51,675 nt of DNA from a virus, in IMG/VR virus record IMGVR_UViG_3300010160_000062, positions 1 through 51,675 of that record, one strand, 5' to 3'. Shown here in pieces: positions 5,038 to 32,300 of the stretch (within the stretch, counting starts at the first letter, position 1; every line of letters begins with the position of its first letter). The translations under genes were made by a program, and so were the position numbers. The notes under the pieces were generated by a model. The model did not search any database. It was not told the DNA's origin and saw only the letters and a list, made by a program, of their open reading frames with translations.

Positions 5038-5066
5038 TTGACACAATGGCCTTTCCTGTGTATAAT
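5038..5066 (+). promoter_or_regulatory. perfect sigma70-type promoter for the moxR-like gene
   Basis: TTGACA (5038-5043) is followed after exactly 17 bp by TATAAT (5061-5066), an exact match to the vegetative -35/-10 consensus. Transcription would begin near 5073 and leave a leader of about 40 nt to the ATG at 5115. A TAGGA ribosome site lies at 5105-5109. Recognition would be by the host housekeeping holoenzyme, so this gene can be expressed before any phage sigma factor. Confidence 0.88.
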
Positions 5067-5114
5067 ACATACATAGACAGTTAATTTCAACCCGCAACTT
5101 AAGATAGGAAATAT

Positions 5115-6218: not shown

Positions 6219-6234
6219 TTCGGTTTAAGGGCAT

Positions 6235-6263
6235 TTGACACCTCCTTCGGGAGGTGTTATACT
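6235..6263 (+). promoter_or_regulatory. sigma70-type promoter for the VWA/metallopeptidase gene
   Basis: TTGACA (6235-6240) and TATACT (6258-6263) are separated by exactly 17 bp. The predicted start is near 6270, with AAGGAG about 20 nt downstream as ribosome site for ATG 6292. The whole spacer is one arm, loop and second arm of an inverted repeat. The promoter therefore combines near-consensus elements with an unusual structure. Confidence 0.85.
6238..6257 (+). promoter_or_regulatory. 8-bp hairpin with TTCG loop inside the promoter spacer
   Basis: ACACCTCC (6238-6245), loop TTCG (6246-6249), GGAGGTGT (6250-6257): a perfect 8-bp stem closed as C(UUCG)G, one of the most stable RNA tetraloops. 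It starts 20 nt after the ATPase stop codon and ends at the base before the -10 element of the next promoter. There is no T-run, so it is not a standard intrinsic terminator. It could stabilise the 3' end of the upstream transcript or be a DNA operator. Confidence 0.8.
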
Positions 6264-6291
6264 ATATACATAGTAACAGTTAAGGAGCATT

Positions 6292-7476
6292 ATGTCACAC
6301 GCAGATCCAATTATTGATAAAATTATCGTAGCCCGTGTTAGCTTGCTTTTAAAGCATCCGTTTTTTGGCAACATGGCTACCCGTTTGAAAATTCAAGAAG
6401 GCACAGAGTGGATGGGCACTGCCGCAACAGACGGACGCACTATCTTTTTTAATCGTGAATTTTTTGAACCTCTATCAGTTAAGCAGGTTGAGTTTGTAAT
6501 TGCACACGAAATTTTGCACAACGTTTTTGATCACATGGGACGTAGAGAAGGCCGTGATCCAAAAATATTTAACATTGCCGCAGACTATTGTGTAAACGGA
6601 CAATTGGTGCGAGACCATATTGGTGATCATAAAATTGAAGGTATTAAAATCTTCCATGAACCCAAATACTACGGCATGGGTGCTGAAGAAGTTTACGACA
6701 AGATTTATGATGAGATGGACGAAGAGGAATTAAATGCTCTTGGTCAATTGTTAGATGATCATATTGACTGGGGAGAAAACGGCAAAGACGGACAGCCTGG
6801 CTATAGCAAAGAAGAACTTAAACAAATTCGTGACGAGATTCGAGAAGCTACTATTGCGGCGGCTCAAGCGGCGGGTGCAGGTAATACTCCTGCAAGTATC
6901 CAAAGAATGATTAAAGATTTCACTGAGCCAAAAATGAACTGGCGTGAAATTATTCGTCAGCAAATTCAAAGTACAATTAAAAACGACTATTCGTTTATGC
7001 GTCCAAATCGAAAAGGCTGGCACATGAGTGCAATTTTGCCAGGTACTAATTACGATGAGACTATTGACATTTGTGTAGGTATTGACATGTCAGGTTCAAT
7101 TGGTGACGAGCAAGCAAAAGATTTCTTAACAGAAATTAAAGGCATTATGCAAGAGTACAAAGATTTTAAAGTTAAAGTCTGGTGCTTCGATACCAAAGTA
7201 TATAACGAACAAGACTACGACGGTTACTGCATGGACGAGTTTGATGAATATGAAGTAATGGGCGGTGGCGGTACAGAGTTTGATGCCAACTGGGAATATA
7301 TGAAAGAACATAATATTAACCCTAAAAAGTTTATTATGTTTACAGACGGTTATCCTTGGGGCAGTTGGGGTGATGAAAATTACTGCGATACAGTATTCAT
7401 TATCCACGGTAATAACACTATTGTTCCCCCGTGGGGCGAATATGCTTATTACGAAGGTGTTAAGGAAACTGCATGA
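6292..7476 (+). CDS. VWA-domain protein with zinc metallopeptidase motif (DUF2201-like), MoxR partner
   Basis: The protein has two parts. The N-terminal half carries HEILHNVFDH (72-81), an HExxH zinc-peptidase motif with another His five residues on. A helical, acidic linker follows (about 130-190). The C-terminal half is a VWA-like fold with a MIDAS signature DMSGSIG (265-271), a GGGGTEFD segment and a FTDG strand end. This layout matches the DUF2201 putative metallopeptidase plus VWA-like family, commonly encoded beside MoxR ATPases. The upstream gene is that ATPase, so the two probably form an ATPase/adaptor complex. The zinc motif and MIDAS both look intact. It has its own promoter at 6235 and overlaps the next gene as ATGA. 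The substrate is unknown. Confidence 0.87.
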   Translation: MSHADPIIDKIIVARVSLLLKHPFFGNMATRLKIQEGTEWMGTAATDGRTIFFNREFFEPLSVKQVEFVIAHEILHNVFDHMGRREGRDPKIFNIAADYCVNGQLVRDHIGDHKIEGIKIFHEPKYYGMGAEEVYDKIYDEMDEEELNALGQLLDDHIDWGENGKDGQPGYSKEELKQIRDEIREATIAAAQAAGAGNTPASIQRMIKDFTEPKMNWREIIRQQIQSTIKNDYSFMRPNRKGWHMSAILPGTNYDETIDICVGIDMSGSIGDEQAKDFLTEIKGIMQEYKDFKVKVWCFDTKVYNEQDYDGYCMDEFDEYEVMGGGGTEFDANWEYMKEHNINPKKFIMFTDGYPWGSWGDENYCDTVFIIHGNNTIVPPWGEYAYYEGVKETA

Positions 7477-8969: not shown

Positions 8970-9635
8970 ATGAATGTTCGACTACTTAGTTACTCCCAAC
9001 CCACAGAAGAATTTGAAAACCTTGGCATTGCAGATGCACAGGAACTCATTGCGTATTGCGCCCGTGTCAGCAATCCAAGCAACCAACTTAACACTGACAC
9101 ATCAGAAAAGCTCATCAGATACTTGGTCAAACACCAACACTGGAGCCCACTTGAAATGGTCAGTGCCTGTATTGAAATCACTACCACCAGAGACATTGCC
9201 CGGCAAATTTTGCGACACAGAAGTTTTAGCTTCCAAGAGTTCAGTCAGCGATATGCTGACCCTACTAAAGACCTGTCGTTTGTATGTAGAGAAGCACGAT
9301 TGCAAGACGATAAAAACAGACAAAACAGTATCCCAGTCGACGATCAACTGTTACAAAATGAATGGTACAGAGCTCAACAAAGAGTTATCTATGCCGCTAA
9401 ACGAGAATACGAATGGGCTATTGCTAACGGCATAGCAAAGGAACAAGCCCGAGCTGTTCTACCGGAAGGGCTTACTGAAAGTCGCTTATATATGAATGGT
9501 ACACTACGTAGTTGGATTCATTTTATTGAATTGCGCAGTGCTAACGGTACCCAGAAAGAGCATCAAGAAGTTGCAGTTGCTTGTGCTAAAGTAATTGCTG
9601 AAATCTTTCCAATGGCTAAAGAGTTGGTTACTTAA
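8970..9635 (+). CDS. thyX: flavin-dependent thymidylate synthase ThyX
   Basis: Makes dTMP from dUMP using FAD, NADPH and methylenetetrahydrofolate. The ThyX signature RHR-x7-SQR is present at 82-94 (RHRSFSFQEFSQR), with HWSPLEMVSACIEI upstream and LPEGLTESRLYMNG plus RSWIHFIELR downstream, all typical of the family. The 221-aa length is normal. With RNase H and FolE/QueE upstream it forms an early nucleotide and replication block. It is the last plus-strand gene here. Its 3' end overlaps that of the converging minus-strand gene by 8 bp, leaving no room for a terminator. Confidence in both family and activity is high. Confidence 0.95.
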   Translation: MNVRLLSYSQPTEEFENLGIADAQELIAYCARVSNPSNQLNTDTSEKLIRYLVKHQHWSPLEMVSACIEITTTRDIARQILRHRSFSFQEFSQRYADPTKDLSFVCREARLQDDKNRQNSIPVDDQLLQNEWYRAQQRVIYAAKREYEWAIANGIAKEQARAVLPEGLTESRLYMNGTLRSWIHFIELRSANGTQKEHQEVAVACAKVIAEIFPMAKELVT

Positions 9636-10695
9636 AAGTTTCTGGCGGAAATGTTTTAATGTGCTGTTCAAACTCTCCTGCTAACCAATCATAGTCATTT
9701 ATCTTAGATAACATCTCAGGATTATCTTTATAAGCAGTTCCAAACCATTTTCCCGCACTCGCACCGCTCTTGGCGTATTCGCTATATTCTGCTCCTGTGC
9801 TTTCATTGAGCCATGCAGATAAACGGTTTTCAGTTTCAATATCGTTTTGTCCTACAATAATTCTACTGCTTAGTTTTACGCACTCTCTAAAAGCACTTCT
9901 CCAAGTGCTTAGTGGATCTGTATTAAATGCAGTGATATTTGAAACATGTGGCATTGATTTAAATTTACTGCTTATACTAGTAGTCATATCTGTACTTGAT
10001 AAATCCATATCTAGTGTTAGTTGACGAGGCAATAATTTTACGCCGCCGTATCCGTATTCTAAATTATTAATAGGGTTTTGACTTTTCCAGACATGTACTA
10101 TATCAAGCTCTTCATTAGTTAACAGCATATTAAAGTCAAAAGTTGGCACTACTTTAGCATCAGCATCTATTACCCAGAACATTGCTGACGAAACTGTTTC
10201 TGCGGCTTGTCTATGTGCATTGTGAATACCTTTTACACCGTCTACTCGATAGACTAAATTGTAAACAGCTAACTTGGTTAATTCTATAAAATTCTTGTTT
10301 GCAAACGTTTCGTGAAAGGAAATAAACACTACATCATAAGGCACTGTATAACTAGCTATCTGTGTATGTTCTTTCTTATTAATAAACAATCGAGAATCTA
10401 ATTCATCATCTGTTATTTCTAAATGTTTAGGAAAAATAAAAATACTTGTTTTACTCCAGTTATCACCATTTGGAAATACATGTACATAGTCCGATTCCCA
10501 CTCTGATACTTTGTAATCAAAATTAAAATTTATTGCAGGTACTACATCTGAAAATATAACCCAGAAGAATTTAGTAAAAGCTCTGCGCTTGGCCTCTGAA
10601 AAACTAGTAACACTTTTGGCCAGTGGAAAACGTTCTTTTAAGATAGAAAAATGTTTATTGTTAAGATTGGAAGAGATATAAAATATATCGTACAT
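9628..10695 (-). CDS. tandem glycosyltransferase-like protein with one degenerate domain, 355 aa
   Basis: Two copies of the same GT-A-like module lie in tandem. Copy 2 (about 121-240) has YDVVFISFHETFANKNF, then AAETVSSAMFWVIDADAKVV, with the DAD (177-179) acting as a likely metal- and sugar-nucleotide-binding DxD. Copy 1 (about 2-75) has YDIFYISSNLNNKHF, then AFTKFFWVIFSDVVP: the same frame of residues, but the first Asp is replaced (FSD). The C-terminal 120 residues (AFRECVKLSS, RLSAWL, DYDWLAGEF) match the C-terminus of the neighbouring 296-aa protein. Expected role: transfer of sugars to a virion protein or surface glycan. It overlaps the upstream gene by one base (TAATG) and ends head-on against thyX. 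Confidence 0.72.
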   Translation of the reverse strand: MYDIFYISSNLNNKHFSILKERFPLAKSVTSFSEAKRRAFTKFFWVIFSDVVPAINFNFDYKVSEWESDYVHVFPNGDNWSKTSIFIFPKHLEITDDELDSRLFINKKEHTQIASYTVPYDVVFISFHETFANKNFIELTKLAVYNLVYRVDGVKGIHNAHRQAAETVSSAMFWVIDADAKVVPTFDFNMLLTNEELDIVHVWKSQNPINNLEYGYGGVKLLPRQLTLDMDLSSTDMTTSISSKFKSMPHVSNITAFNTDPLSTWRSAFRECVKLSSRIIVGQNDIETENRLSAWLNESTGAEYSEYAKSGASAGKWFGTAYKDNPEMLSKINDYDWLAGEFEQHIKTFPPETFK

Positions 10696-11585
10696 TATCG
10701 TTTTCTAATAATTCTAGGACTGTTGCTATATACTGTTTTAAAGAATTTACTGCCGGCTGGATCCAAATTGGCAATTTCTAATTTGCATTTATCCCTAAGT
10801 TCTTTACCGTAAAAATTGATTTGATTTGTTTTTTCTTCTTCTGTAGCATTTTCATAATGCTCAGTCCAGTAAGTAGTTAACCATTCAAAGTCACGCACAT
10901 TAGCATAATCCCATTTGGTACAATTAGTTAAGGCAGCGCCTTCTCTTGCACCTAGTATACTGTAGATTCCGTTTTCTACATCAGCACCTACACTAGACCA
11001 TACCAATAGTCTATGATAGTTTTGCCACCATATAGTAGATAAGTCCGTTACTTTTGCACCCTGGTCCAACGACATCTTTACACCTTCGCGAAACCCTGCT
11101 CTCCATGCTTGAAAAGGAGTTGCGTTAGTAAAGCTCTCACTATAGTTTTCGTTAAACTGATAATATTTGTCATCAAAACAGAATTCTACCAATCCCTTTG
11201 CATCTGTTGGATCACTGTTTTCATGCGTTTTCATCTCGTTTACAAATTTACGTGTCCATAATTTAAGTCCACCGTTGCCGTACATAAGTCCGTTAACATG
11301 AACTTTTCCGCACCAACTAAACACATGCTCTGGAGTAAGACCTAACTTTTTTATATCTATTTCAATTTCGAGAAATTTAGGATCTACAATATTATCAGCA
11401 TCCACAGTAACAAAATATTCTGTTTCACTTAGGGCGGCGCAGGCTTTGTGTGCGGCATCGCTGCCTTTAACTCCATGCACACGTTTGGCCCAGGGCACCT
11501 TGTTACACAAATCTGCATAATTTTTTTCTGCGTTAGGTTCATCATAACTTAAAAATATAATATCCTGTTCTATAATTTTAATCAT
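10695..11585 (-). CDS. GT-A-fold glycosyltransferase (GT2-like), 296 aa
   Basis: The N-terminal domain begins QDIIFLSYDEPNAEKNYADL, then HGVKGSDAAHKACAALSETE, then YFVTVDADNIVDPKFLE. DADNIV (about 59-64) is the DxD motif on the usual strand end, and the preceding helix with HKA is the typical GT-A substrate helix. The C-terminal domain includes YGNGGLKLW, GFREGVKMS and VRDFEWLTTYW and is shared with the downstream tandem protein, so the two are paralogues. No membrane segment is visible, so it is probably a soluble cytoplasmic enzyme. Donor and acceptor are unknown. It overlaps the upstream gene by 8 nt and belongs to the operon started at 14255. Confidence 0.78.
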   Translation of the reverse strand: MIKIIEQDIIFLSYDEPNAEKNYADLCNKVPWAKRVHGVKGSDAAHKACAALSETEYFVTVDADNIVDPKFLEIEIDIKKLGLTPEHVFSWCGKVHVNGLMYGNGGLKLWTRKFVNEMKTHENSDPTDAKGLVEFCFDDKYYQFNENYSESFTNATPFQAWRAGFREGVKMSLDQGAKVTDLSTIWWQNYHRLLVWSSVGADVENGIYSILGAREGAALTNCTKWDYANVRDFEWLTTYWTEHYENATEEEKTNQINFYGKELRDKCKLEIANLDPAGSKFFKTVYSNSPRIIRKR

Positions 11586-12189
11586 TTATTTTCAATCCGT
11601 AAGAGTCAAAGAATCTTTTTGTTGATATTGAAATAATATCAATTTGGGATTCAAATTTACTTTCAAAACTGTATACAAGTTTTCCAGCTTTTAATATGTC
11701 GTGCAATTTAATATAAACTGTTCTAATTAAAAAATCAAAATCAGTCTCTAACATAAAAAAGAATACCAAGGTGCTGTCGTACTTTGCACCATCCAGCGAT
11801 TCTCTCCCCAGATCTGTAACATAAAATGTCCACTGTTTTTGAGTGTTATCCCATTCAATGATAAACTCGGTGGTATCACTAACTGCATTTTTTACCCATT
11901 CTAGAGATTTATTTTTAAAACTAAATTCGCTGTATACCTGTTTAGTTATTAATTTATATTCTATGTTTCCATCTAACTTGATTGAACGATCAATTAAACA
12001 ATCTCTAAATAGAGTCTTTCCACTTACTAGATCTGCGTGATCGTCTTTAGTAATTTTAGCATAGTGAGTAAGAGCAGGATTTGGATCATTAGTAACTGAA
12101 AGCAAAGATTCAGTTATTGGATCAAAATAAGCATAATATTCGTGAACTATATCACCTGGGTCGTTGAATATCTTTTTAGTTCGAGCCAC
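11578..12189 (-). CDS. hypothetical protein in glycosyltransferase island, 203 aa
   Basis: Unknown. The first half looks beta-rich (IVHEYYAYFDPITESLLSVT, then HYAKITKDDHADLVSGK), the middle has FIIEWDNTQKQWTFYVTD, and the C-terminal 60 residues look helical (LIRTVYIKLHDILKAGKLVY). No DxD, Cys cluster or signal peptide is seen. It overlaps the glycosyltransferase genes on both sides (14 nt upstream, 8 nt downstream). It is therefore certainly expressed with them and may be a partner or an acceptor protein, but this is inference from position. Confidence 0.7.
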   Translation of the reverse strand: MARTKKIFNDPGDIVHEYYAYFDPITESLLSVTNDPNPALTHYAKITKDDHADLVSGKTLFRDCLIDRSIKLDGNIEYKLITKQVYSEFSFKNKSLEWVKNAVSDTTEFIIEWDNTQKQWTFYVTDLGRESLDGAKYDSTLVFFFMLETDFDFLIRTVYIKLHDILKAGKLVYSFESKFESQIDIISISTKRFFDSYGLKIND

Positions 12190-13021
12190 TTGCCAACTCC
12201 TCTAAACGTAAAATTAACTCTGGAGTAACAAAGTTTTTTTCTATATAATGAAATAGCTTACTTTGTTTTATATTGCCTACAACTAAATCACCCTTTGTAT
12301 TTAAAACAGCAGTAACAGTGTCTTGCCAACTATTACACGGATGATCCCATAATTGTAAATGAGGTTTCATATGAATAAACTCTAACGGACTGTGATTATC
12401 AAAAACTTGATCATGGCACATTAACAGTTCTATAGATACTGCGGTAGCTAAATCTAAACTACATATATTTTGATATTCGTTTGGTGCAAATTTATCCCAA
12501 CACCATTCCCAGTTGTTACAAACAAATTCAAGTGTTTTATAAAACTCGTGTGCAAGTTGTGATTTTTTAAAATAATGTAACGCTATATAAGGCTCGCTAA
12601 GTTTATTAGCAATAAATGTTTTTCTATGAAATGTATCTTGTACAGTTTCTAATTTATAATTTTTTATTCGAGAACAAAATTTTAAATCGTAGTTAGAGCA
12701 ATATTCCCACCATGTGGTAATATCTTCTAATAATAACATATCCGAATCAAGAACTATAGTTTCATCATACGGTGTAACATGATATAGTTTCCATCTATGC
12801 TCAGTTGCATAACGACTTTCAGATGTGTTTTCTGACCAAGGTGTTGGTATTATTTTGTCAAATACATCTTTGTACTTTTCAGGAATATCATTGGTAGTAA
12901 CAAGGGAAATTCCTGTTACAGATTTTTGACTATATTTTATACTCAGAGCTAGTGCATAAGCCTGTGATATATAATCCACAGTATCTGTATTTTGTGCAAA
13001 GATTAAAAATCCTTTAGACAC
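12176..13021 (-). CDS. GT8-like glycosyltransferase, 281 aa (GTG start)
   Basis: Glycogenin/LgtC-like layout: FLIFAQNTDTVDYISQA at the N-terminus, then the metal-binding strand ETIVLDSDMLLLEDI with a DSD motif. A second half follows with FIHMKPHLQLWDHPCNSW, which carries the late His commonly seen in GT8 enzymes. The frame is open upstream to 13036. GTG at 13019-13021, with GGAGGG just upstream, gives MSKGFLIFAQN, which aligns residue for residue with MTRGAVIFAQN of the upstream paralogue and yields the same 281-aa length, so I chose it. It overlaps the previous gene by 8 nt. It probably adds a hexose to a phage or host glycan; the acceptor is unknown. Confidence 0.75.
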   Translation of the reverse strand: MSKGFLIFAQNTDTVDYISQAYALALSIKYSQKSVTGISLVTTNDIPEKYKDVFDKIIPTPWSENTSESRYATEHRWKLYHVTPYDETIVLDSDMLLLEDITTWWEYCSNYDLKFCSRIKNYKLETVQDTFHRKTFIANKLSEPYIALHYFKKSQLAHEFYKTLEFVCNNWEWCWDKFAPNEYQNICSLDLATAVSIELLMCHDQVFDNHSPLEFIHMKPHLQLWDHPCNSWQDTVTAVLNTKGDLVVGNIKQSKLFHYIEKNFVTPELILRLEELASGSN

Positions 13022-13859
13022 CCAACCCTCCGTCAATAAATCTGCATAAACTGGATTTATTCATTACATGCACATCAAGTGCTTGTGTTTTTACTAGAGT
13101 ATACTCTCCGAGATAATCTTGTTTTTCAATTAAAAATTTCATTTTGTCATTTGTGATATCTATTAACAAATCCTTGTCAGTTATGAACGTCATTTTTCCA
13201 GGAAGATCTATTGCAAAACCTCCGTTAGTTTTACCGTTCATAATATGTATGGCAATACTAAATGCATAGTCATTTCGATAGGTGTTAGCACTGATGCCGT
13301 AAAGATTTCTAAAATAAGTCCAATTAGATTTGATATATGCAACTAGGTCAAAAAATGCTTCTGTAATACTGTTCTTTTGAAAAATAAATGCAGTGGCCCA
13401 ATAAAAAGGTATACTCCACTGACTAACACGTTCAAATTCTAGTGTTGAGCGCCAACCTGATAGATCCATGCTGTTACGATAAATTTGAAAATCGTAGTCG
13501 CTGTCAAATGCTGGTTTTAAAACATTGGAGTTAATAATATAATCGCTATCAATTACAAGTGTTGTATCATACGGCGTAAGGTTATAAATTTTATCTCTTG
13601 TAAAGTTCTTCCACTCAACTGTTTTATTAAATAATGCACCGTCATTAAAATTCTTGAATTGTGTTCCTGAAAACTCAATACTTATTACCTTATCAAATCC
13701 GTGATTGGGATATGATTCTTGTAACCAGTTTTCACTATCTGTAATAATAGATACTGGAATATCTAGATATTTTTTTATTCGAGTGGCAGCAAATACTGCC
13801 ATTTTTGTATAATCTAAACTGGCATTGTTTTGTGCAAAAATTACAGCGCCACGTGTCAT
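13014..13859 (-). CDS. GT8-like glycosyltransferase, 281 aa
   Basis: Paralogue of the next gene in the operon. RGAVIFAQNNASLDYTKMAV starts the Rossmann-like half. DTTLVIDSDYIINSNVLKP provides the DSD motif (about 103-105). WRSTLEFERVSQWSIPFYWA and NDYAFSIAIHIMNG lie in the acceptor half, and ALDVHVMNKSSL is the C-terminal His segment. No membrane anchor is visible. The protein overlaps its neighbours by 4 and 8 nt. Two adjacent GT8-like and two GT2-like proteins suggest stepwise assembly of an oligosaccharide, perhaps on virion fibres whose genes lie directly upstream, or alteration of the host surface. Confidence 0.75.
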   Translation of the reverse strand: MTRGAVIFAQNNASLDYTKMAVFAATRIKKYLDIPVSIITDSENWLQESYPNHGFDKVISIEFSGTQFKNFNDGALFNKTVEWKNFTRDKIYNLTPYDTTLVIDSDYIINSNVLKPAFDSDYDFQIYRNSMDLSGWRSTLEFERVSQWSIPFYWATAFIFQKNSITEAFFDLVAYIKSNWTYFRNLYGISANTYRNDYAFSIAIHIMNGKTNGGFAIDLPGKMTFITDKDLLIDITNDKMKFLIEKQDYLGEYTLVKTQALDVHVMNKSSLCRFIDGGLGV

Positions 13860-15272: not shown

Positions 15273-17300
15273 TTATAGTATCACACATTCTACAAGTTTG
15301 ACATTTACATCAGCATTTGACTCTAGTGCAACAGCAAATACGTCAGAAGTGTTGCTGGTTGCAGACTGTGCAGTACCGTTTGGGCCTGCAACCAAACGTT
15401 GTCCTTTTATAATCGGGCCAGTTACCTTAACAGGAACTCGTCCTTTTAGTGCAACGGCCGTGCCATTTTCAAGATCTGTGTTCATCAAGTATGCTGGATT
15501 TGCACTAACTGGGCCAATAGCTAGAGAACCAACCCAACATTGAGTAACTTCTTTTTCGCCGCCTATAGCAAGTACTGTACCAACTTCATACTCTGCATCT
15601 GCAAGGTATTTCTCAGCCAAGTCAGCATAATTAGCGGCTGTTGCTGTGCCGTGGAAAACAGTTGCATACATATCTCCAGCTACAACTAAGCTACGTGCTG
15701 GAGTAAATTGTCCTGTATAAACACCGTTATTAGTTATGTTAATATAGCCGTCGCCACCGTGATAAAAACCAGTGTCCAAAGAGGTATCAGCACTAAACGT
15801 GATGCTGGGTTGTGTTACTGAACCTGTGCCTACTATTAATCTTCCTGTTGATGTATTTACATTTCCAGTAAATGTTTTTGTGGCTGCATCAAAACATGTT
15901 GTTGTATCTGTTGCACGAATGTTTCCTGTATGAATACCTGCTGTATTTCCAGTTACTGCTCCAGTTAAACTTCCTGTAAATGTGGTAGAATATATGTTAC
16001 TAAACGCATTATTAGATTGTCCAATATCTCCAGTTCCTGTTGTTCCTGTTTTTGTAATTGAACTTAAACTAACTGCATTTGCAACAATATTTGCACTAGC
16101 ATCTCTAGCAACTATTGTGCTAGCTACCGCAGTTGCATTAGCACTGACATAACTACTTCCATAGAGTAATTTATCAGATTTTTCTGCAACACCATTCATA
16201 AATGTTACACTGATATGTCCACTAGTATCTCTAGCAACTATCGATCCTGCACCTGTTAAATTTGTTACACTGGCTGCAACATACACTCCGTTTGAATTCA
16301 ATGTATCTGCTTTTTGAGCTGTTGAATAAACATAACTGGCATAGATGTTATTCCATAACAAACCGGTTGATCCCAAATTACTTGCTAATGTTACTCCTGG
16401 AAGAACATCAGAATTTAACAGTTGCATTGGTGTAACTGTAACACTCGAAGCATTAGTTGTTTGGAATTTAGTTGCAGTATTATTAATCTGATTTAAGATT
16501 GTTGGAGTTGTTGCTCCATCATTAAATATCTTAAGTTTAGGAATTGGATTACCAACAGTAAAGCCAACATCTCCAAAATTTACTAACGCATTAAAAGATG
16601 CATTACCTGCTTGGATATAAGAACCAGCTGTTAGACCACCTAGTTTGTCGGCATTTGTGGCTGTACCATAAAATCTATGACTGCTAGTAGTAACACCTGG
16701 TTGTGTATTATTGGTTGTATTAACCAAAGTAACGCCCTGACGTACATAAGTAAAACCTGAAATAGCGTTAGCAGTATTATCTAATAAGAAATCTGGATCT
16801 GAACTAACAGTAAACACAACGTTGCCATTATTAATAGCTTGAATAATAGCATGAGTTCCGCCTAGCGAATCTCTAACGCTGACACTTTGCATTTGTGTGG
16901 TGCCTGCGCCTGCAACTCCTTGCGGTCCTATTAATGTAAATGATGTTCCGTTCCATGAAAACAACTGTTTATTAGTTGTATCAAACCAAAAATCTCCAAC
17001 CGTCAGTCCAGTGGGCGCAGATGCACCTACTTCAGCGCCGCCAGTAGTTCTAAATTTAGTACCATCGTAGAATTTTATTTTATTGTTTCCACTATCGTAC
17101 CAAATTTGGCCGCTTAACGGATTTGGTGGCTGGGTAGTGTTAGCAAAATTCTCTAGTAAGTACACAAAATTCTCATTTTGTGCTTGACCGTATCCTGCAT
17201 AACTTTTACCAATTAACTTGATGTCGAGAGAAGTGTCGATCGTTCCATCAGTTACCGTAGTTATTGCCTGACCGTTGTATCTGGTGATTAAATATGACAT
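15273..17300 (-). CDS. tail fibre protein with C-terminal Peptidase_G2-like domain, 675 aa
   Basis: The N-terminal ~110 residues (GKSYAGYGQAQNENFVYLLE, PLSGQIWYDS, IKFYDGTKF) form the docking domain shared with three more fibres in this locus. The middle is Ser/Thr/Asn-rich beta material with repeated ATNADKLGG, STAQKADTL and IVARDTSG segments. The end (about 555-675) reads ADLAEKYLADAEYEVGTVLA, then AVALKGRVPVKVTGP, then IKGQRLVAGPNG. This matches the Peptidase_G2 type of domain, known in phage appendages as an intramolecular chaperone that may release itself after trimer folding. The expected role is a trimeric receptor-binding or side fibre. It has its own late element at 17322-17329. Confidence 0.82.
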   Translation of the reverse strand: MSYLITRYNGQAITTVTDGTIDTSLDIKLIGKSYAGYGQAQNENFVYLLENFANTTQPPNPLSGQIWYDSGNNKIKFYDGTKFRTTGGAEVGASAPTGLTVGDFWFDTTNKQLFSWNGTSFTLIGPQGVAGAGTTQMQSVSVRDSLGGTHAIIQAINNGNVVFTVSSDPDFLLDNTANAISGFTYVRQGVTLVNTTNNTQPGVTTSSHRFYGTATNADKLGGLTAGSYIQAGNASFNALVNFGDVGFTVGNPIPKLKIFNDGATTPTILNQINNTATKFQTTNASSVTVTPMQLLNSDVLPGVTLASNLGSTGLLWNNIYASYVYSTAQKADTLNSNGVYVAASVTNLTGAGSIVARDTSGHISVTFMNGVAEKSDKLLYGSSYVSANATAVASTIVARDASANIVANAVSLSSITKTGTTGTGDIGQSNNAFSNIYSTTFTGSLTGAVTGNTAGIHTGNIRATDTTTCFDAATKTFTGNVNTSTGRLIVGTGSVTQPSITFSADTSLDTGFYHGGDGYINITNNGVYTGQFTPARSLVVAGDMYATVFHGTATAANYADLAEKYLADAEYEVGTVLAIGGEKEVTQCWVGSLAIGPVSANPAYLMNTDLENGTAVALKGRVPVKVTGPIIKGQRLVAGPNGTAQSATSNTSDVFAVALESNADVNVKLVECVIL

Positions 17301-17335: not shown

Positions 17336-17998
17336 TTACTGCTGGCTTGCAACCCAAGTGGCCAGTTTAGCTAATCCTTCGTCATCATACCCATACAATT
17401 CAGGGTAAAGACTGATCCAAATGTGCGAAAGTTCAGGCACAATTGCTTTAAATCGCAAAGTTGCTCTACCACGATTTTCTAATTTAAATGTAACTGATGC
17501 TCCGTTGGTAACAGATGTTTTGTATTCTGATGAATTTCCGTTGTTTATACTGATAGGAAACTCAAGTTTGTTCATGTTTTTAATCTGAATTTCAGTAATA
17601 TCAGGCCATACTTTTCCATCCTGATCTACAATTTTAGGAACTAGAGTAATTAAATTGTCAACACCAACAATTGCATTACGTTTATCATCAAGATATGTAT
17701 TAGGTCCAAAATCAACTAAAACTTTTCTAAGTTTGATAGTGTTTTGCTCCGTCCAAAAAACCAACTGTCCTGGATTAACAATGCTTTCAGCAATATCATC
17801 GTACATTGCTTTACTAATGGCACCAAGATAATGAGATGCAATATTTGTATCAGCATGTACTACATCCTCAAATGATGCTATTGAACCAAACAAGCCGTTG
17901 ATTAATCTGTTTACAGTAGAATATGTAATAGAATACAGTTTATCTTCTGTCCATCCAGTTGTTATTGTAGTAATACTGTCGTTTGTTGTAGTTGTCAT
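17336..17998 (-). CDS. putative virion structural protein, 220 aa
   Basis: Unknown protein between fibre genes. The N-terminus (TTTTNDSITTITTGWTEDKL) is Thr-rich and flexible, followed by a helical part (SITYSTVNRLINGLFGSIAS, then HYLGAISKAMYDDIAESIV). From about residue 100 a beta-rich domain follows (LITLVPKIVDQDGKVWPDIT, then FKLENRGRATLRFKAIVPEL), which resembles an immunoglobulin-like or jelly-roll strand pattern. It starts inside the upstream U32-like gene (ATGA) and so is co-translated with it, which makes a partner role worth considering. No catalytic residues are apparent. Confidence 0.65.
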   Translation of the reverse strand: MTTTTNDSITTITTGWTEDKLYSITYSTVNRLINGLFGSIASFEDVVHADTNIASHYLGAISKAMYDDIAESIVNPGQLVFWTEQNTIKLRKVLVDFGPNTYLDDKRNAIVGVDNLITLVPKIVDQDGKVWPDITEIQIKNMNKLEFPISINNGNSSEYKTSVTNGASVTFKLENRGRATLRFKAIVPELSHIWISLYPELYGYDDEGLAKLATWVASQQ

Positions 17999-18996
17999 GC
18001 CATAACCCTTGTTGTCATTTTATCGTATATTTTGTCGCAATGATTGCATTCTGTTCCGCACACTGTTTTACAATTGTTAGTTAGTTCATTAAATCCCAAT
18101 TCAGTTATTTCGTTAACCAAAACGTTTGTTAAAAATGTATCACCGGTTGTACTTAACAAATCTCCAAATTTAATATTCCCGCTTTTCTTTTGATACGCAT
18201 CGATGACTCTGAACCACCTATTGATAGGAAATCCACGTCCTGCAATTTTTATTGTATCAACTAACCCATCAAATTTAGATGTATCGTTTGGTAATGTAAA
18301 TGCCGTTTTAAGCCACTCTGCAGGATTACTTTTAAAATAATTAACACACCCTAATTTAGTGTGTACATTATCTGTAATCTCTCTGTTGTCTTGAAACTTA
18401 ATTTGACTTATAATTAAATCATCCCATTGTTTCCATTTACAATCTACAATACAACCTTCGTTAACTAGCATGGTAATTTTAATTCCGTGCTGATTTCCGT
18501 AAGTTCTCATTTTTTTAAGAGTATCTAAGTCTCTATTTAAACTACGGTCAACAATGATACTAGTAATGCCCAACACTTCATGCATGAAAATAAAATCTTT
18601 TAATGTACGAACTAAATTGTTTACGCTGTTTTTTACTTCCAGGGCGGGTTTATGTATTTGAAAATCTTTAGTGATTCCAGCTCTTAACAAATATGTATTG
18701 TTTAATGTGACCATATCAACATCTAAATCTTTAACATGATCTATAAGTTCAGGAATCTTTTCGTAAAATTCGTTGGAGTATAAACTAGGGTTTACAAGAT
18801 AATGAAGTTTAATTCCATATTTTTCTCTAATAGCATATAATTCGTCAAACATTTCTGTTCCGTTGTATATGCTTCTTGCACTACCAAATTTATTGTCGCT
18901 AAAATACACGTCTGAGATACTTGCGGTATCTAAACCAGATAATGCTTCAAGCATACCCTGAGTATATGGAATACTAAATTTATGGGCTGTATACAT
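17995..18996 (-). CDS. peptidase U32-like TIM-barrel protein with cysteine cluster, 333 aa
   Basis: The order of motifs follows the U32 (collagenase-like) family: SDVYFSDNKFGSARS near the start; FDELYAIREKYGIKLHYLVN; DVDMVTLNNTYLLRAG; GITSIIVDRSLNRDLDTLKK; ITMLVNEGCIVDCKW in place of the family's FVHGALC..SG.C; and DTIKIAGRGFPINRWFRV in place of the LKI.GR block. Cysteines at 182, 186 and 217 occupy the region that binds a [4Fe-4S] cluster in UbiU/UbiV-type members. A second cluster closes the protein (309, 313, 317, 320). Known U32 proteins act in oxygen-independent hydroxylation of ubiquinone precursors or of RNA, and some are called proteases. It overlaps the upstream fibre gene by 17 nt and the downstream gene by 4 nt, so it is expressed late with fibres. 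Family assignment is by eye; substrate unknown. Confidence 0.6.
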   Translation of the reverse strand: MYTAHKFSIPYTQGMLEALSGLDTASISDVYFSDNKFGSARSIYNGTEMFDELYAIREKYGIKLHYLVNPSLYSNEFYEKIPELIDHVKDLDVDMVTLNNTYLLRAGITKDFQIHKPALEVKNSVNNLVRTLKDFIFMHEVLGITSIIVDRSLNRDLDTLKKMRTYGNQHGIKITMLVNEGCIVDCKWKQWDDLIISQIKFQDNREITDNVHTKLGCVNYFKSNPAEWLKTAFTLPNDTSKFDGLVDTIKIAGRGFPINRWFRVIDAYQKKSGNIKFGDLLSTTGDTFLTNVLVNEITELGFNELTNNCKTVCGTECNHCDKIYDKMTTRVMA

Positions 18997-21877
18997 TGTT
19001 TATTCTGCTTCCAATTCCAATCCAACCTGCTTGGATGTTTGTTCCATGGTACCAGTGGTCGCCTGATCCAATAGTTAGTGTTATATTAAATCTTCCCCAA
19101 TATGGACTATTGCTATCAGCAGTGTACGGTGTTACAGCCACTGACCAAGTTTGTTGTCCCATATTGTAATATACAATTCGATTATCAGTAATTCTAGTAA
19201 GACTTGCGCCAATATTAAGATCGTAATTGCCTTTCCAAGTTAAATCGGCAGGATTATTACTTAATCCTAAAAATCCACCAAGGTCCACAACAAGTATCAC
19301 TGATCCAGTAGCGCCACCCACATAAGTTGTTGCACTAGTTCTGTTATAAGATGTTGAACTACTCCAGCCTCCACCTACTTCGGCTCCAACATATCCCGAT
19401 GTATATCCGCTACCTGAACTTGAACTTAGATTCATATCAATAGTACCAACAATAGTTTTCACAATATTTTGCAATTGTACTTGCGGACTTGCTGTGGGAG
19501 CAGGTATTGATGGTTTGTTTGATAAATCATTATAACTACCAGTTGACGCAACTGTAGCCAATGTTGTTCCAAAGTTTGTATCAGTAAGAATTTTTGCCCA
19601 CGGGCTCCAAGTATTTCCAACATCCCTACGACTGCGAATATAATTGTCAGCATGTGAACCAGTTGAGCCACTCCAACCTATTAATAGTTCTCCACCGCCG
19701 GCACCGCCCAGTGTAATTAAATTACCGTAAGTTGTAGGATAACCGTTATTATAAACACTACGTAACGTTAATGCTTGTGATGGTTCTGCTGTGCCGTTTG
19801 TTTCTGCTGAAATTGTACCACTGTTTGTTATATACGCTGATGATCCAGAAGCATTACCAGTTAAACTACCAGTAAATGTTGGAGCAGTCACTGAACCATT
19901 TAGTGATAGCCCGCCACCTGGTCGAAATTGTCCAGAATACTGTCCATTGTTAGATATGTTAATATATCCATCGCCGCCCCAATAAAATCCAGTATCAATA
20001 GCACCATCGTTGTAGAAAGCAATACTTGGGCTGGATGCAGTTCCATTAGATAAAAATATCCTACCGTTTTGTGCATAAACTGACCCAGTTAAATCCCCAG
20101 TCACATTACCTACACTAGGACCAGTATGTGTTCCAGCAGTGTTACCTGTTACGTTACCTACTGTAGGACCAGTATGTGTTCCAGAAGTGTTGCCAGTTAC
20201 ATTACCAGTTACATTACCAGTTACATTACCAGTTACATTACCTCCAACATTACCAGTGTGAAATCCAACTGTATTGCCGGTTACATTACCAGTCACATTA
20301 CCTAATAGATTACCTGCAAAATAATTTGTTGCTGTATGGATCGTACCAGTCACATTACCAGTTACATTACCAGTTACATTACCACCAACATTGCCTGTAT
20401 GAAATCCTGTAGTATTACCAGTTACATTACCAGTCACATTACCTACTACAGCTCCAGTATGTGTTCCGGTAGTGTTGCCAGTTACATTGCCGTTTACGTT
20501 CCCAGTGTGTACTCCAAAAGTATTTCCGGTCACATCTCCAGTTACATTACCTAATACAGCACCAGTGTGCTGTCCTGATGAATTTCCAGATAGATTTCCA
20601 GTTACATTTCCCACTACAGGGCCAGAGTGAGTTCCAACACTAGCACCTACTATATTAATATTCCAAGCAGTTGTGTTGTTATCGTTAAAAACAAAATTAA
20701 TAGGTTTTCCGTTTACATTGTACCACTCAACAAAATTAGCAACATTGGCTACACTTGCTAAATCAGCCTGGGCGGCTTGAGTAGCAAAATCAGCATTTAT
20801 TGCGCTGTCTGCTTTGCCAATAAATTTACGACCTCTAACATCTGAGTTAACATCTCTTGCAACAATAGTATTAGATGCAGATGCAGTAGTGGCAGTAACA
20901 TATGTCCCTCCAAGACTTAACGAATCTGCTTTTTGTGCCGTAGAATAAACGTAGCCTGCATATAAATTCCTAAATGCTAGGACACTAGATCCAAGATCAG
21001 TAGTTGAATTTGTTCCAGGTAAAATATTATTGTTTAACAACGTTAATGGTGTGTTTGTTACACTTCCAGTTGTTGTTTGGAAAAACATATTACTGCCTGT
21101 GACATTCTTAATAGTAGGAATATTTGTTACGCTATTAAAAATACTTAATGTTGTTCCAATACGTAATCCATCATCGACAATTTTTACAACTGTAGGAAAT
21201 TCAGGATTAGAAATTGGTGCGTAAAAGGAAGGTAAGTTAGTTCCTAATTGGTCTGCATTAGTTGCAGTACCGTTATATTTCATAGTAGAATTAACTGTTA
21301 TTCCTTTATAAATTGTTGGAAAACCAGTTATAGCGACGCTTGGACTAAAATCAGCATCGTTGCTTACTGCAAAAATAATATTACCGTTGGAATAGCCAAA
21401 TTGTACTGGGTGAAAGTTGTTTACAGTGTCTTTAATTTTAACACTATGCATTTGTGTTTGACCGTAACCGTATACAGATTCAGGGCCAACTAGTGTGTAA
21501 CTTGCACCGTTAAATATTTTTAATTGATCAGTTACTTGATCATACCACATGTCACCAGCGGTAACTGTGCTAGGAGTTGTTTGATTTGTGTTTGTTGTGA
21601 CATTGTTAACTGCTAAGGATTTCCAGTTAGTACCATCGTACACGTTAATTTTTAACACACCCGCAGTTGCATTATACCATAGTTGTCCGTCTAACGGTTT
21701 TGTTGGAGGGGATGTTTTACTAAAATTATCCAATAAAAACATAAAATTTTCATTTTGTTTTTCTCCATAGCCAGCATAATTTTTACCAATTAAAGTAATA
21801 TCGGTCACTGTGTTAATAGTGCCATCAGGCACTATTGCTATTTGATCTCCGTTAAATCTGTTTATGGTATATGACAT
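18980..21877 (-). CDS. large tail fibre protein with GNVT repeats, 965 aa
   Basis: The N-terminal docking domain (GKNYAGYGEKQNENFMFLLD, PLDGQLWYN) is shared with three neighbours. Residues about 413-595 are a low-complexity shaft built from G-N-V-T units interrupted by G-x-H-T-G steps, almost certainly a repetitive beta-structure. A segment TGFYWGGDGYINISNNGQYS is shared with the 675-aa fibre. Then a knob-like module with NYIRSRRDVGNTWSPWAKIL is followed by a Ser/Gly/Tyr-rich C-terminal domain (about 810-965), likely the receptor-contacting tip. At nearly 1,000 residues this would be the longest fibre of the set. A late element lies at 21900-21907, and its 3' end overlaps the U32-like gene. 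Confidence 0.82.
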   Translation of the reverse strand: MSYTINRFNGDQIAIVPDGTINTVTDITLIGKNYAGYGEKQNENFMFLLDNFSKTSPPTKPLDGQLWYNATAGVLKINVYDGTNWKSLAVNNVTTNTNQTTPSTVTAGDMWYDQVTDQLKIFNGASYTLVGPESVYGYGQTQMHSVKIKDTVNNFHPVQFGYSNGNIIFAVSNDADFSPSVAITGFPTIYKGITVNSTMKYNGTATNADQLGTNLPSFYAPISNPEFPTVVKIVDDGLRIGTTLSIFNSVTNIPTIKNVTGSNMFFQTTTGSVTNTPLTLLNNNILPGTNSTTDLGSSVLAFRNLYAGYVYSTAQKADSLSLGGTYVTATTASASNTIVARDVNSDVRGRKFIGKADSAINADFATQAAQADLASVANVANFVEWYNVNGKPINFVFNDNNTTAWNINIVGASVGTHSGPVVGNVTGNLSGNSSGQHTGAVLGNVTGDVTGNTFGVHTGNVNGNVTGNTTGTHTGAVVGNVTGNVTGNTTGFHTGNVGGNVTGNVTGNVTGTIHTATNYFAGNLLGNVTGNVTGNTVGFHTGNVGGNVTGNVTGNVTGNVTGNTSGTHTGPTVGNVTGNTAGTHTGPSVGNVTGDLTGSVYAQNGRIFLSNGTASSPSIAFYNDGAIDTGFYWGGDGYINISNNGQYSGQFRPGGGLSLNGSVTAPTFTGSLTGNASGSSAYITNSGTISAETNGTAEPSQALTLRSVYNNGYPTTYGNLITLGGAGGGELLIGWSGSTGSHADNYIRSRRDVGNTWSPWAKILTDTNFGTTLATVASTGSYNDLSNKPSIPAPTASPQVQLQNIVKTIVGTIDMNLSSSSGSGYTSGYVGAEVGGGWSSSTSYNRTSATTYVGGATGSVILVVDLGGFLGLSNNPADLTWKGNYDLNIGASLTRITDNRIVYYNMGQQTWSVAVTPYTADSNSPYWGRFNITLTIGSGDHWYHGTNIQAGWIGIGSRINNVYSP
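20095..20640 (-). repeat. 12-bp tandem repeat region encoding GNVT units
   Basis: On the plus strand the unit CCAGTTACATTA is repeated perfectly four times at 20193-20240 and three times (first copy with one change) at 20346-20381, with many diverged copies across the region. On the coding strand it reads Gly-Asn-Val-Thr. The 12-bp length keeps the frame whenever copies are gained or lost. Confidence 0.9.
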
Positions 21878-26379: not shown

Positions 26380-29300
26380 TTAGTTCTTGTAGTCAGAATA
26401 CCAAATACCAGGGCTTGCTCTTAGAAATTCTGCAATTTTGCTAGTATCGTTCTGTATGTTAACTGTATTATCCCAAGCAATACCAGTTCGTTTGACAACA
26501 GTAACCTGAGTTCCTGAGTTTAATAAATTAGTTAATCTTATTTGATTATTTGTTCCGTTTACTGAAAAATCTGCATCAAGCTGTACATCTCCTTCAGGGC
26601 TGTAAGGGCTATTATTTACATTGTGTACTTTGTACGGACTCTTTTTCAAACGTATGTTTCCAATAAAGAATTTCCAGTTAGCAGAGTCTATACTAAACAC
26701 TGTTGAACTGACATGATTTGCTATACATCTGTAAGTATAAGTCCCTACATTCACAATTGTTCCAATGGTGTAACTTGTAGAAGGAGTCCAAGTAGTTCCT
26801 TGATCATAGCCGCCAACAAACACTTCAATATCGTCCGATTGACCAAAATTTGCAGGAATTGTACTTGAATACCCGGCACTATAAGACCAAGTAGTGTTAG
26901 ATTTTGTTGGAGTAAACGACAAATCTATAAAGTTGGTGCCGTCCGACAATATTTGTTCAGTAATTGAAATTTCAGTATACGGAACAGTTTCTGACGGGCC
27001 AATATCTTGAACAAATGTTCCTTCTCTGTTTAAAGAATAAGCGCCTGTTCCTAACGTTCCTCTACGTAATTTTCCTAAGATATTTCCTTGTTTAGAAAAA
27101 TATTCAATCCTCTCTCCTCGTATTTCAATTACGCCTGGGCGATTTAAAGTAGGATTAGGTATATCAAAGTTATCTGCATTAGTGAGTACAATAGATAGAT
27201 CGTTTAATTTTAAATCCTGAGCAAGTGTTGTTCGCTTACTTAAACTTAGTCGTTTAAAATGTACACGATTCAGCATGTCTTTAAATTGCATATATGCAAT
27301 GCCAGATGTTAATACATTACTGCTAAAAGTAATCAAAGTTATTTTATCTGTAGAACTAGGTATAGTTGCTAGTTGAATAGTTTCTTTATCATCGTTTAAT
27401 TTGTAATCAATACTAGGAACTAATAATGTTGTATTTCTTATAACCCATATATAGTTGTCATCAACTACAGGCCTATCTAGTTTTATAGTTCCATTAGATA
27501 TAGATGTATATTCATAAAACTCAATTGTGCCAGGTGTTAATTCAAAATTAGATGTAACACTAACTGAAGTTCTCTCAATATCCAATATATTATGATTATA
27601 TGAACTAACAACCTCAACAATAGTGGCTAATGGATATACTGTTCCAAAAGTTATAGTTTTTAATGTGGGATTGTAAGAATAACCGCTTGAAGATGCTACA
27701 CTAACTACTAATTCTTTTCCTGAATATAGTGTGTATACAGATTGGTTAATTTTAATTTTAATACCACTCAAATCTATAGTATAGTCAGATCCTAAATTTA
27801 ATTTTACGCCGTCAGCAAAAATATTTATTTGGTCAACTGCTACAGAATAAGGTAATATCTTTTTAGAATCAAGTATGTAATTTAATCGATTATTTCCAAT
27901 TCTGAAATAACTGTTATTAGGTGCTGGAAGAATATTCTGTCCAGCTCTTACAATCATGTTTGACTCGTTTGGAGGTTTGTTTCCAACTGAAAATACTAGA
28001 GGATAAGTTGTGCTTACACCATCTATTGCAATTCTTTCTGTTTTAGTTACTGAAAAAGTTTGTTGATTACCGTTAACAATAGTAAAATTAATTAAAGAAT
28101 TTACAGGAGGAATTATTCCAAATCGCAATCCAACAGCATTAGCAAACTCATAGGTACTGTCAGTTTTGAATAATTCAGGAGTATAAATTTCCCCATCAAT
28201 ATAAACCAAAGTTGTTAAAGAATCTTGCCAAGGTGCTTTTGTTATAAACTCGCGAGTAGCACCATCACCAATAAAATAGTCAAGGTCAAGGATATTTGAA
28301 CCGTTAAATCCCATGTTAAAAATTGTAACTAGCTGGCCAGTAGTAGGTGTTACTTTTAAACTAACTGTTTTATTTTTATAATCAAATGTATAATCATCGT
28401 CAAGAGATTTTATATTGTTTCCAACTTTTACAATAATTGCTGTATTGCTATTGGGATAGATAGGTAAAGTAAAATCTTTTGTTACTCCGTTACTAATAAA
28501 ATTACTAATTTTAATATTAGACGAACCCGACTGTGGTCTATCAAATACTTTGATAGCAACTGAATCTACCACTTGTCCTGGCACGACTTCTTCAGGCGCT
28601 GGGCTACTGGTTGGTGTCACAAACCCGTCACCATCTACTAAGATATCGTCTGCGGCCAAGCCTGTAGCAGTACTGTACGCAAGATCTCCACCTTTGATAG
28701 AAGTATCATAATCGTTTTCTGAAGGAGCAACTGATCCATCACTAGTGCTCTTACGTAAAATAAACGCATCTCCTGATGCAACCACAAACGTATTTGGAAT
28801 TGTAAATGTGGCAGAAGTTCCGTTTGCAACTGGAGTAGTTAAAATTGCAGTTGTATTTGTTTGGCCTGACGTTCCGTAAGCAGGATCGTCCAATCTAGTT
28901 GGATTAATTTTACCGGTAATCTTAAGAACAACTCCAGACGTTAACGGATTAGTTAGTGACAATGTTCCGTTGGCATTGATAATTACATCATTTGGTTCTA
29001 TCAATGTTCTAGTAGCTGTGATGTTTGTGTTATTTGGTATATTTGCATATAACACTTTGTTAATGCTGATAGTTGTGCTATTGATAATTCCTGTAATTAC
29101 TGTGTCATATGTAAAAGTAGATACTGTAGCACAAGCCAACACATCGCCAACATATAAAATTGCGGTGTTGTTAACAGTCAATTTAGTACTACCAGCATAG
29201 TTGTACGAAAATATCAAAGTTCCCGATGGGGTGCTGTCTGGTGCGGCATTTAATAACACTGTAGTAGAATCAATGATTGCTGTTACTGTTCGAGTTCTTG

Positions 29301-32300
29301 GGAAACCAGTTCCCTGAACCGCCATACCAATCACTATACCAGTTGTGGTTGAAACTTTTAATGTAGTATCATAACTACCAGTCAATGATGTAACAGATAT
29401 ACCAGAAGTAGTTACTGTAGTTATTGTAGTTGCGATTGGTGCGTTTGCAAGAATATTATAAGTAAACTCTGTTAATATCCCATTTAATGTGTATGTATCA
29501 ACATTGTTTTTTATATGATAAATGTTAATTGCTGTGCCTGCTGCCGGAATATACGGCATTGTGAACGAATATGTGTTTGCGTCCACTGTTACAAAAAAAT
29601 CATCAAATGTAGGATCAAAGTTATCCCATTTATCTTGAAAGAATGGAGACGAATCCCATCCAGCTAACACATTAAATCCAAGGCCATTAACAACAACTCC
29701 GCCGTAATCAATTCCGGTCATTAATTGACTTAAATCTCTACCTAGCTGACCAACTCCTGGAGTATAATAATACTGAATTCTATCTGGCGCATTTAAAACC
29801 GTTTCGTCTATGTTATACTCAATAACAACCGTTGCATTGTTAGAAGGAGCATAGCCTACTGCAAATGTTATTTGTCCGTAATAAGAAGTAAATCCTTTTG
29901 TAGTTGATGTTATGGTTTTTAATTTATAGTTTTCTCGTAGCACAGGAACGTTGTTCACGGTAACTCTAGATTTTCCAATACGAATATCTGGAGCCCATTT
30001 TAAATTAAATTGTAAAGTATTACCGTTACCTGTATATGTTTCAACTTGTTCGATCTGTGTTACATAATTTGTTTGCGTTGTTCTATCAAATTTAATTCCA
30101 ATATGGGCAGTTCTTACAACACTGTTTCCAATTATTGCAATTGCTTTTGCCTGTTTACCGGTAACAGAATAACCGCCGTCGATGGTAATTATAGGAGCTT
30201 GTAAATACCCAGTTCCCGGAGTTAACAATATAATCCTATTAACTTTTCCATTAGTAAAAAATGCCCTAGCTGTTGCACCTGTGCCTGTTGGGCTAGCAAT
30301 AGTTACTGTTGGTTCCAAATAGTATCCAGAGCCAGCATCGACGATAACTATTTCAGTAATACTAAATCCACTATTATCTAGCCAAAATTTCCAAGGATAA
30401 TTTTGTATACTTGCGTTGTCTGATTGGATAACTCCGTTGTTTACTGTAACATTAATTAATTCAATATTTCCAGTAGTACTGTTATAAATTGGTTGTAGAT
30501 CAAAATCAGTTATTGGTAGTTGCGCAGTATCTAATCCGTCATAGTTACTAACATATTCTCTAATTTTAGTTTTGTAAGGTTTTACTTCATTTACGTAATC
30601 TTCAAAATTAGATAAATTATCAACAGGATAATTTACTGGCTGATCAAGCATACCTATGTTGTGTTGAGCTTTTACAAAACTGGTTTTAAAAATCCAATCT
30701 ACATATAATTGTTCGCTAAACACATATCGAACGCTTTCAAAAAATAAATCTAAATAATTTTGTTTTAATTCGTTAATAAAGATTTTATTTTTAATTACAT
30801 TTAAAATAGTTTTTAATTCAACACTAGCAACAACGTCAAACGAATCGCCGTCGTATATGTTTGAATCATAACCCACATTGGTACCAGTAAATTGATACAA
30901 AGATGGGCTTAACTGAATTGTGCCGTTTTCTATTCCAACAACTTGATAAGATTCAGTCCAGTCAACACTGGTTGAATTATTATATTTTTCTAAGAGCAAC
31001 CAGCCGCCGTTATTAGCAATTCTTATTTTAACAATATCTCCAATAGCAGAATTGATTGAATTTAAATTAACAAATGTATCAACTGCATAATCCGGGCTTA
31101 CAAACTGATTAAAACCAGTTGCGTACCAGTTGGCATATTCCCAATATTGTCTTACATCGTAACTTTGTGTTAATGTGCGTGACCAAACTTTGTATATATT
31201 ATCGTAAGAATATATACTCCAATGATTAGACGCTTGTGTATCACTGTGTACTAACACAGAATAATTTCTAACTGATAATTTAGTTGTATGGCCGTATCCT
31301 TCACCTTGTGATGTTATAGTCACTCCTGTAACTTGTCCAAGCGTGTTTATAATTGTTTTAATTTCAGCGCCAATTCCTGCACCAGAAATTTTCACAAAAG
31401 GCGCAACTAGATAACCTTTGCCGCTTACAGTAATAAGAACATCTACTATCTTACCGTCAACAATAACTGGGGTCAAACTTGGCGGAATAAAACCAGTTAT
31501 GTTTGCATATTCTAATTCTAAATCAGTATCCAATACAGTATCATATAAACCATAAACAATATTTGGTTCTTCATCAAACGAATCTAAATCAGAAATATCA
31601 CTATTTTCTGCAATTTGTTCTGTAATAAATAATCGATTTGCAGTTTCAACAAATTGTTTAAGTGCTTCAAATCGATTTACAAACATGCTTTGTCTTGGTC
31701 TATTTTCAATACCGTATTTTAATTTAGTAGGCAAAGACATATCAGGGACTAATAATCCTTTGCTGTCTGTACCGCTCAAACTATCAAACCATTTTTGTTC
31801 TATAGTGTTTGGAATATTAGTTGTAGGATCGTTGCTAATTAATTTGTACTGATTGTGAATATTTTGATCAGTAATTCCTGTAGTCCAGTATTCAATGGAC
31901 AATACAACATCTCTGTCATTTAGATAAGGTTTAACATTTGTAAGACTAAAAGAATTTAGTCCTGTTAATGCAAGATAACTATATCCTTGTCCTCGTGGAT
32001 TGGAAATTAAACTAGAAACATTTGACGCTGAAATTTTTCTTCCTATAACATCAGGAATAACTTTTTTGTTCTTAACCCAAAAATAATATTTGTTTTTAAA
32101 AGTTTTACTAATTTTGTCGTAAATTTGTTTTGTAGCATATACTGTATCTCCATACAAAGACTGACCGCTAATATCCAAAGTGATACCAGCTGGAGTATCT
32201 GCCTGGGCGTCCCATTTGCTTGGCAATAAGTTAGTTTCAACCCATTCGTAAATATCAATAGTTGATCCGGTTGCTAGTGTATTCCATGTGCTGTTTCGAT

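Follow-up and report, generated by a model that had tools for sequence, protein, structure and literature searches.

What is a protein of the U32 superfamily doing inside the tail-fibre locus of a phage? Tail fibres determine host choice, and U32 enzymes have, to our knowledge, hitherto been linked to RNA bases and quinones. We addressed this question in the window, a 51,675-base fragment (GC 36 percent) of an uncultured tailed phage from a lake, held as an IMG/VR record. A first-pass annotation had read the open frame at 17995-18996 as a U32-like, possibly Fe-S protein that is translated together with its neighbours; the coordinates are correct, and the gene lies on the minus strand, which that annotation left unstated. 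The locus contains the following features.

18980..21877, minus strand: tail-fibre protein, 965 aa (PHROG tail fibre, E=8.4e-17)
18983..19480, minus strand: C-terminal tip domain of the 965-aa fibre, ending HWYHGTNIQAGWIGIGSRINNVYSP, kept across the window family in the fibre gene that precedes U32
17995..18996, minus strand: U32-superfamily protein, 333 aa, seven-cysteine subfamily (profile searches, alignments, structure model)
17336..17998, minus strand: h220, beta-rich partner protein, 220 aa, directly after U32
15273..17300, minus strand: fibre gene following h220, 675 aa (PHROG tail fibre families)
9628..13859, minus strand: glycosyltransferase-like gene block, optional (weak glycogenin-like match at 12176-13036, E=0.02; DxD-like motifs in the rest)

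The end of the fibre gene overlaps the start of U32 by 17 bp, and the U32 stop overlaps the h220 start by 4 bp (ATGA). These two overlaps make translational coupling of the three genes probable, as had been proposed for the fibre and 220-aa genes on first pass. The fibre tip domain is common to the U32-upstream fibres of the window family, with a faint resemblance only in the contigs L023 and L033. No RNA- or quinone-related genes were recognised near the window U32. Within the downstream block, a search with 10695-11585 gave no match, and the genes other than 12176-13036 may be glycosyltransferase-like, judging by DxD-like motifs alone; the block as a unit is present in some relatives and missing from others, and lies outside the core fibre-U32-h220 module. 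At the far end of the window, 1086-1955 encodes a QueE-like radical SAM protein (PHROG 2076, 2.6e-49), a hint of 7-deazaguanine chemistry that may concern the phage DNA.

That the product of 17995-18996 belongs to the U32 superfamily is near certain. A single-sequence Pfam scan returned Peptidase_U32 (PF01136) at 15.7 bits (E=0.0095); the HMM search proposed on first pass thus did find the family, only marginally, and because the score falls below the curated cut-off of 22.4 it would not by itself justify the name. NCBIfam gave chance-level matches only, and sequence searches of the PDB gave nothing useful. The protein matched PHROG families of phage U32 proteins at 1.5e-5 and 2.4e-5, and hhalign comparison of a ten-relative alignment with six Straboviridae U32 proteins yielded E=7e-13 across 313 columns; it scored 94 bits, and column-shuffled controls did not exceed 25. 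The same alignment scored 49.8 against E. coli UbiU/TrhP/RlhA/UbiV (shuffled profiles at most 20.3), and a wider phage alignment reached E=1e-10 over 223 columns against E. coli U32 proteins. An AlphaFold2 model (pTM 0.82) predicted a TIM barrel, the fold anticipated by the first-pass annotation from motifs; its best match among all PDB chains was the U32 structure 5d88 (E=1.6e-6), which points to a barrel of U32 type, and its best match among viral models was an Escherichia phage 'Peptidase'. We use 'U32 peptidase' as a family name only and do not argue for proteolysis.

The motifs quoted on first pass and the seven cysteines (Cys182, 186, 217, 309, 313, 317 and 320) are found at the positions given there, and all seven are invariant in ten relatives. 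We define here a seven-cysteine U32 subfamily by N-E-x-C-X3-C, a central Cys and a C-terminal CX3CX2-3CX2C; the window protein carries this pattern, the Straboviridae proteins show a longer first spacing, and the seven cysteines are kept in 30/30 members, phage and bacterial, Desulfobacterota included. The sites discussed below are as follows.

18472..18474, minus strand: Thr175 codon, at the position of TrhP E162 / RlhA E161
18439..18453, minus strand: Cys182-Cys186 codons in VNEGCIVDC, aligning with TrhP C170 and C177
18346..18348, minus strand: Cys217 codon, aligned with TrhP C193 / UbiU C193 (33-row alignment)
18037..18072, minus strand: C-terminal CX3CX3CX2C, Cys309/313/317/320

Mutants revealed C170 and C177 of TrhP to be essential, and TrhP E162 (RlhA E161) is likewise essential (PMC6599085); the [4Fe-4S] cluster of UbiU is ligated by C169, C176, C193 and C232 (PMC6747719). 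Cys182, 186 and 217 align with TrhP C170, C177 and C193, so that the first three stand at UbiU/TrhP ligand positions, as the first-pass annotation had suggested; the window protein has no counterpart of the fourth canonical ligand (TrhP C197), and three of UbiU's four ligands (C169, C176, C193) were aligned in the 33-row alignment, with C232 unmatched. The spacing is CX3CX30C and departs from CX6CX15CX3/4C, the cysteine motif of U32 Fe-S hydroxylases (PMC6747719). Judged by its sequence, the protein is not classed with the UbiU/TrhP/RlhA hydroxylase subfamilies. The four extra C-terminal cysteines noticed on first pass proved to be present in 30/30 members and absent in the three E. coli enzymes compared (UbiU, TrhP, RlhA), making this motif subfamily-specific relative to them. 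An Fe-S cluster in the window protein is likely, and the cysteine pattern suggests one cluster in the barrel, whose fourth ligand is open or comes from the C-terminus, and perhaps a second cluster.

The position of the TrhP Glu is occupied by Thr175 in the window protein and by Thr in all 10 clade rows; elsewhere it is Ser (cyanophages) or Glu (Straboviridae, L090, L091 and most bacterial members). Because the essential Glu is Thr, the clade does not have the signature of a TrhP/RlhA-type pyrimidine hydroxylase, and its substrate or chemistry has probably changed relative to those enzymes. One MAFFT run produced an alternative register, with C182/C186 on TrhP C193/C197 and C217 on UbiU C232; we set it aside for the register in which both hhalign and the 33-row alignment place C182 on C169, and the latter also C186 on C176 and C217 on C193. 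Since the register varies by alignment, we regard the assignment of individual ligands as provisional. Model confidence is low around the cysteines (pLDDT <50 at residues 182-205 and 313-315). Exceptions to the K..GR motif and the seven cysteines are rare across the clade.

We then compared the gene order and selection of the module among relatives. Eighteen close-relative contigs have the order fibre, U32, h220 wherever the contig extends that far, and relatives show the order fibre-U32-h220-fibre. A wider search recovered 34 clade contigs, 33 of which were testable in that sequence remained downstream of U32; an h220-family gene followed U32 in 33/33, directly in 32 (overlap of at most 8 nt or a 1-nt gap) and after an intervening radical SAM gene in one (L125/L115). 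This constant partnership goes beyond the first-pass annotation and includes the 543-kb phage L118, whose partner is an h220 homologue (hhalign E=8e-21). The partners in L104 and L115 scored 35 and 43 against h220 (shuffled sequences at most 20 and 18), and a reverse search with h220 returned only contigs that also hold U32 or end before it. The neighbourhoods of clade U32 genes consist of structural, mostly fibre genes. The model of h220 itself has pTM 0.81 and pLDDT 89.5. Searches with this protein gave nothing in Pfam, no convincing hit in PHROG, no homologue among phage records and no significant fold match. The radical SAM gene of L115 (1047-2039; PF04055, 5.7e-18) encodes C-terminal cysteines, and its insertion suggests a multi-enzyme modification locus.

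The dN/dS of U32 between the window and relatives was 0.035-0.085, lower than or similar to that of ThyX in the same phages (0.066-0.145), and that of h220 was 0.15-0.26; synonymous sites were near saturation in several of these pairs. The low values mark strong purifying selection and indicate that the U32 gene is functional.

In a tree of 33 rows, the window clade was supported at 98/98, the phage contigs L090, L091 and L092 grouped with Desulfobacterota proteins, the cyanophages S-RIM12, S-RIM2 and S-ShM2 stood on a separate branch, and the Straboviridae stood on another. Three branches of the tree, namely the window clade, the L090-L092 group and the cyanophages, are thus separate, and in each the gene lies close to fibre or tail genes. 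At least three recruitments of U32 by phages are likely on this tree, and not proven, because its deep branches are resolved only in part. In L090, fibre-like genes with a PHROG match common to the window's fibres flank the U32-partner pair on both sides; in L091 and L092, whose neighbours have no PHROG match, the fibre link is judged solely by size and position. The partners in L090-L092 had no detectable relation to h220, with real scores no better than shuffled ones, so we make no case for a single partner family common to all; a scan for further members of this group found only those three. The U32 genes of S-RIM12 and S-RIM2 share their region with annotated tail-fibre genes, and that of S-ShM2 is not adjacent to an annotated fibre gene. 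The search of related phages proposed on first pass shows the arrangement of U32 with fibre genes recurring across lineages, and makes the link to fibres much stronger than that annotation could know.

In S-RIM12, the U32 region (phrog_1458; L119:9085-11165) makes up the N-terminal portion of a larger protein whose C-terminus is weakly methyltransferase-like. The next gene, annotated as a tail fibre protein, overlaps it by 4 bp and has a weak match (E=0.0016) to 2OG-Fe(II) oxygenases, another hydroxylase type.

Among known systems, the Straboviridae 'peptidase U32' (RB69 ORF050c type, phrog_5757) resembles the window protein in a near full-length family match and all seven cysteines; a phage U32 protein was already annotated as RB69 ORF050c (PMC1524935). 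It differs in its longer Cys loop, its retained Glu, the absence of an h220 match in phage records, and its setting in a DNA-arabinosylation cluster, flanked by sugar-phosphate genes and a thymidylate-synthase homologue, with chorismate mutase nearby. The cyanophage proteins (phrog_1458/phrog_36869) have the seven cysteines of the window protein, and those of S-RIM12 and S-RIM2 its tail-fibre surroundings, but they are longer, with a weakly methyltransferase-like C-terminal region and Ser in place of Glu, and the S-RIM12 protein has the oxygenase-like neighbour. TrhP (YegQ) and RlhA (YdcP), which carry out prephenate-dependent RNA hydroxylation, share with it the U32 barrel and three aligned cysteines, two of which are essential; they lack the C-terminal four-cysteine motif, whereas the window protein lacks the Glu (Thr), the fourth canonical cysteine and the RNA context. 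UbiU/UbiV, O2-independent ubiquinone hydroxylases with [4Fe-4S] clusters, likewise have the barrel in common, with three of four UbiU ligands, but they form a U32-U32 pair, whereas the window U32 has an unrelated, beta-rich partner and no counterpart of UbiU C232. Standalone U32 proteins of Desulfobacterota (L070, L071, L078-L081, L088) have the seven cysteines and a similar length, and differ in being bacterial and in keeping the Glu in most cases.

The Straboviridae loci bear on the possible oxidant. Chorismate mutase produces prephenate, and Pfam CM_2 scored above its cut-off next to U32 in four loci; a profile built from those four detected chorismate mutase next to or near U32 in 14/17 Straboviridae loci (L027-L032, L059-L069; a few are duplicate genomes), where it is often annotated merely as a hypothetical protein. 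Prephenate is required by TrhP and RlhA (PMC6599085) and supplies the oxygen when ubiquinone is made anaerobically (review PMC11574389); we read the chorismate mutase beside U32 as support for prephenate-fed oxidation in the family. PMC13390438 gives arabinosylated 5-hydroxycytosine as known or likely in these Straboviridae and attributes synthesis of 5-hydroxy-dCMP to the thymidylate-synthase homologue; given that attribution, we did not adopt U32 as the maker of the DNA 5-hydroxyl. The U32-chorismate mutase pairing nevertheless offers a testable clue to the supply of the 5-hydroxycytosine/arabinose pathway. Neither chorismate mutase nor a thymidylate-synthase homologue was found in nine window-family contigs, which are fragments; with no chorismate mutase seen in them, prephenate in the window family would need a host source.

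The reading we favour, to which we give about an even chance, is that the window U32 is an Fe-S enzyme that oxidises the fibre, h220 or an attached sugar without O2, probably by hydroxylation. Its TIM barrel would probably bind one catalytic [4Fe-4S] cluster through Cys182/186/217 and an open or C-terminal ligand, and the C-terminal CX3CX3CX2C might carry a second cluster. Translated together with the tail fibre and its dedicated partner h220, the enzyme would oxidise, by family analogy through prephenate-fed hydroxylation, a virion component whose synthesis coincides with its own in time and place, namely the fibre tip, h220, or a sugar carried by either of them. We infer the fibre as a target from its location, which is no proof of substrate, and Thr175 in place of the essential Glu across the clade counts against this reading, as the chemistry may differ. 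The recurrence beside tail genes in very different viruses suggests a chemical finishing step of the part that grips the host. More tentatively, and with the balance of our judgement against it, several phage lineages may have independently recruited the seven-cysteine Fe-S U32 for O2-independent oxidation of the fibre tip or a fibre-associated protein, a new form of virion maturation. We know of no established case of oxidative Fe-S enzymatic finishing of fibres. A literature search on U32, phages and tail fibres, with most subscription journals outside its coverage, returned no relevant report, and the literature searched held no description of a recurrent fibre-associated module with a dedicated partner or of a seven-cysteine, Glu-less form. 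If the favoured reading is true, gene sequence alone is insufficient to read fibre chemistry, and the range of U32 enzymes extends to proteins or glycans.

The oxidised substrate could instead be a nucleotide sugar or glycan, later attached to the fibre with the help of the downstream glycosyltransferase-like genes. Straboviridae homologues do lie among sugar-phosphate isomerase and NTP-transferase genes, and a gene that looks by sequence like a UDP-glucose epimerase begins within the U32 stop in one Desulfobacteraceae genome; six relatives (L004, L005, L008, L009, L010, L013), however, have U32 and h220 without glycosyltransferase-like genes there, and we consider this reading unlikely. A non-enzymatic role, in which the protein binds Fe-S or zinc and serves as a chaperone in the assembly of the fibre tip and h220, would explain the obligate partner, the fibre context and the loss of the catalytic Glu, but appears quite unlikely for a protein that retains seven cysteines and the K..GR motif across its clade and is under purifying selection equal to that on ThyX or stronger.

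Roles in nucleic acid modification seem less probable still. The window U32 is of one family with the Straboviridae proteins across 313 columns, their copy lies close to a thymidylate-synthase homologue, they presumably act in the 5-hydroxycytosine/arabinose pathway, and the window phage encodes the QueE-like protein; a part in DNA or nucleotide modification is nonetheless very unlikely, given a gene that sits in a structural operon, the replacement of the Straboviridae Glu by Thr, and the nine fragmentary contigs without either pathway neighbour. Hydroxylation of host tRNA or rRNA in the manner of TrhP or RlhA, to which distant similarity and the alignment of both essential cysteines would point, earns the least credence, because the essential Glu is Thr in the clade; the missing equivalent of the fourth cysteine, the fibre-locus position and the exclusive protein partner stand against it as well. 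The first-pass suggestion of a late enzyme acting on host RNA or quinones thus finds little favour, the same residues and the lack of any recognised RNA or quinone gene nearby speaking against both.

Three further observations concern the surroundings of these genes. In L071 (Desulfobacteraceae; 4991-7068), the seven-cysteine U32 gene overlaps a UDP-glucose 4-epimerase-like gene by 4 bp, which may be a second hint of sugar metabolism. Fibre-like genes near U32 in L023 (14429-17128) and L033 (14412-17225) encode long collagen-like Gly-X-Y repeats. In the window, one uninterrupted frame (26380-41595) encodes 5071 aa amid the structural genes, with weak matches to FG-GAP and the carbohydrate-binding module CBM_5_12.
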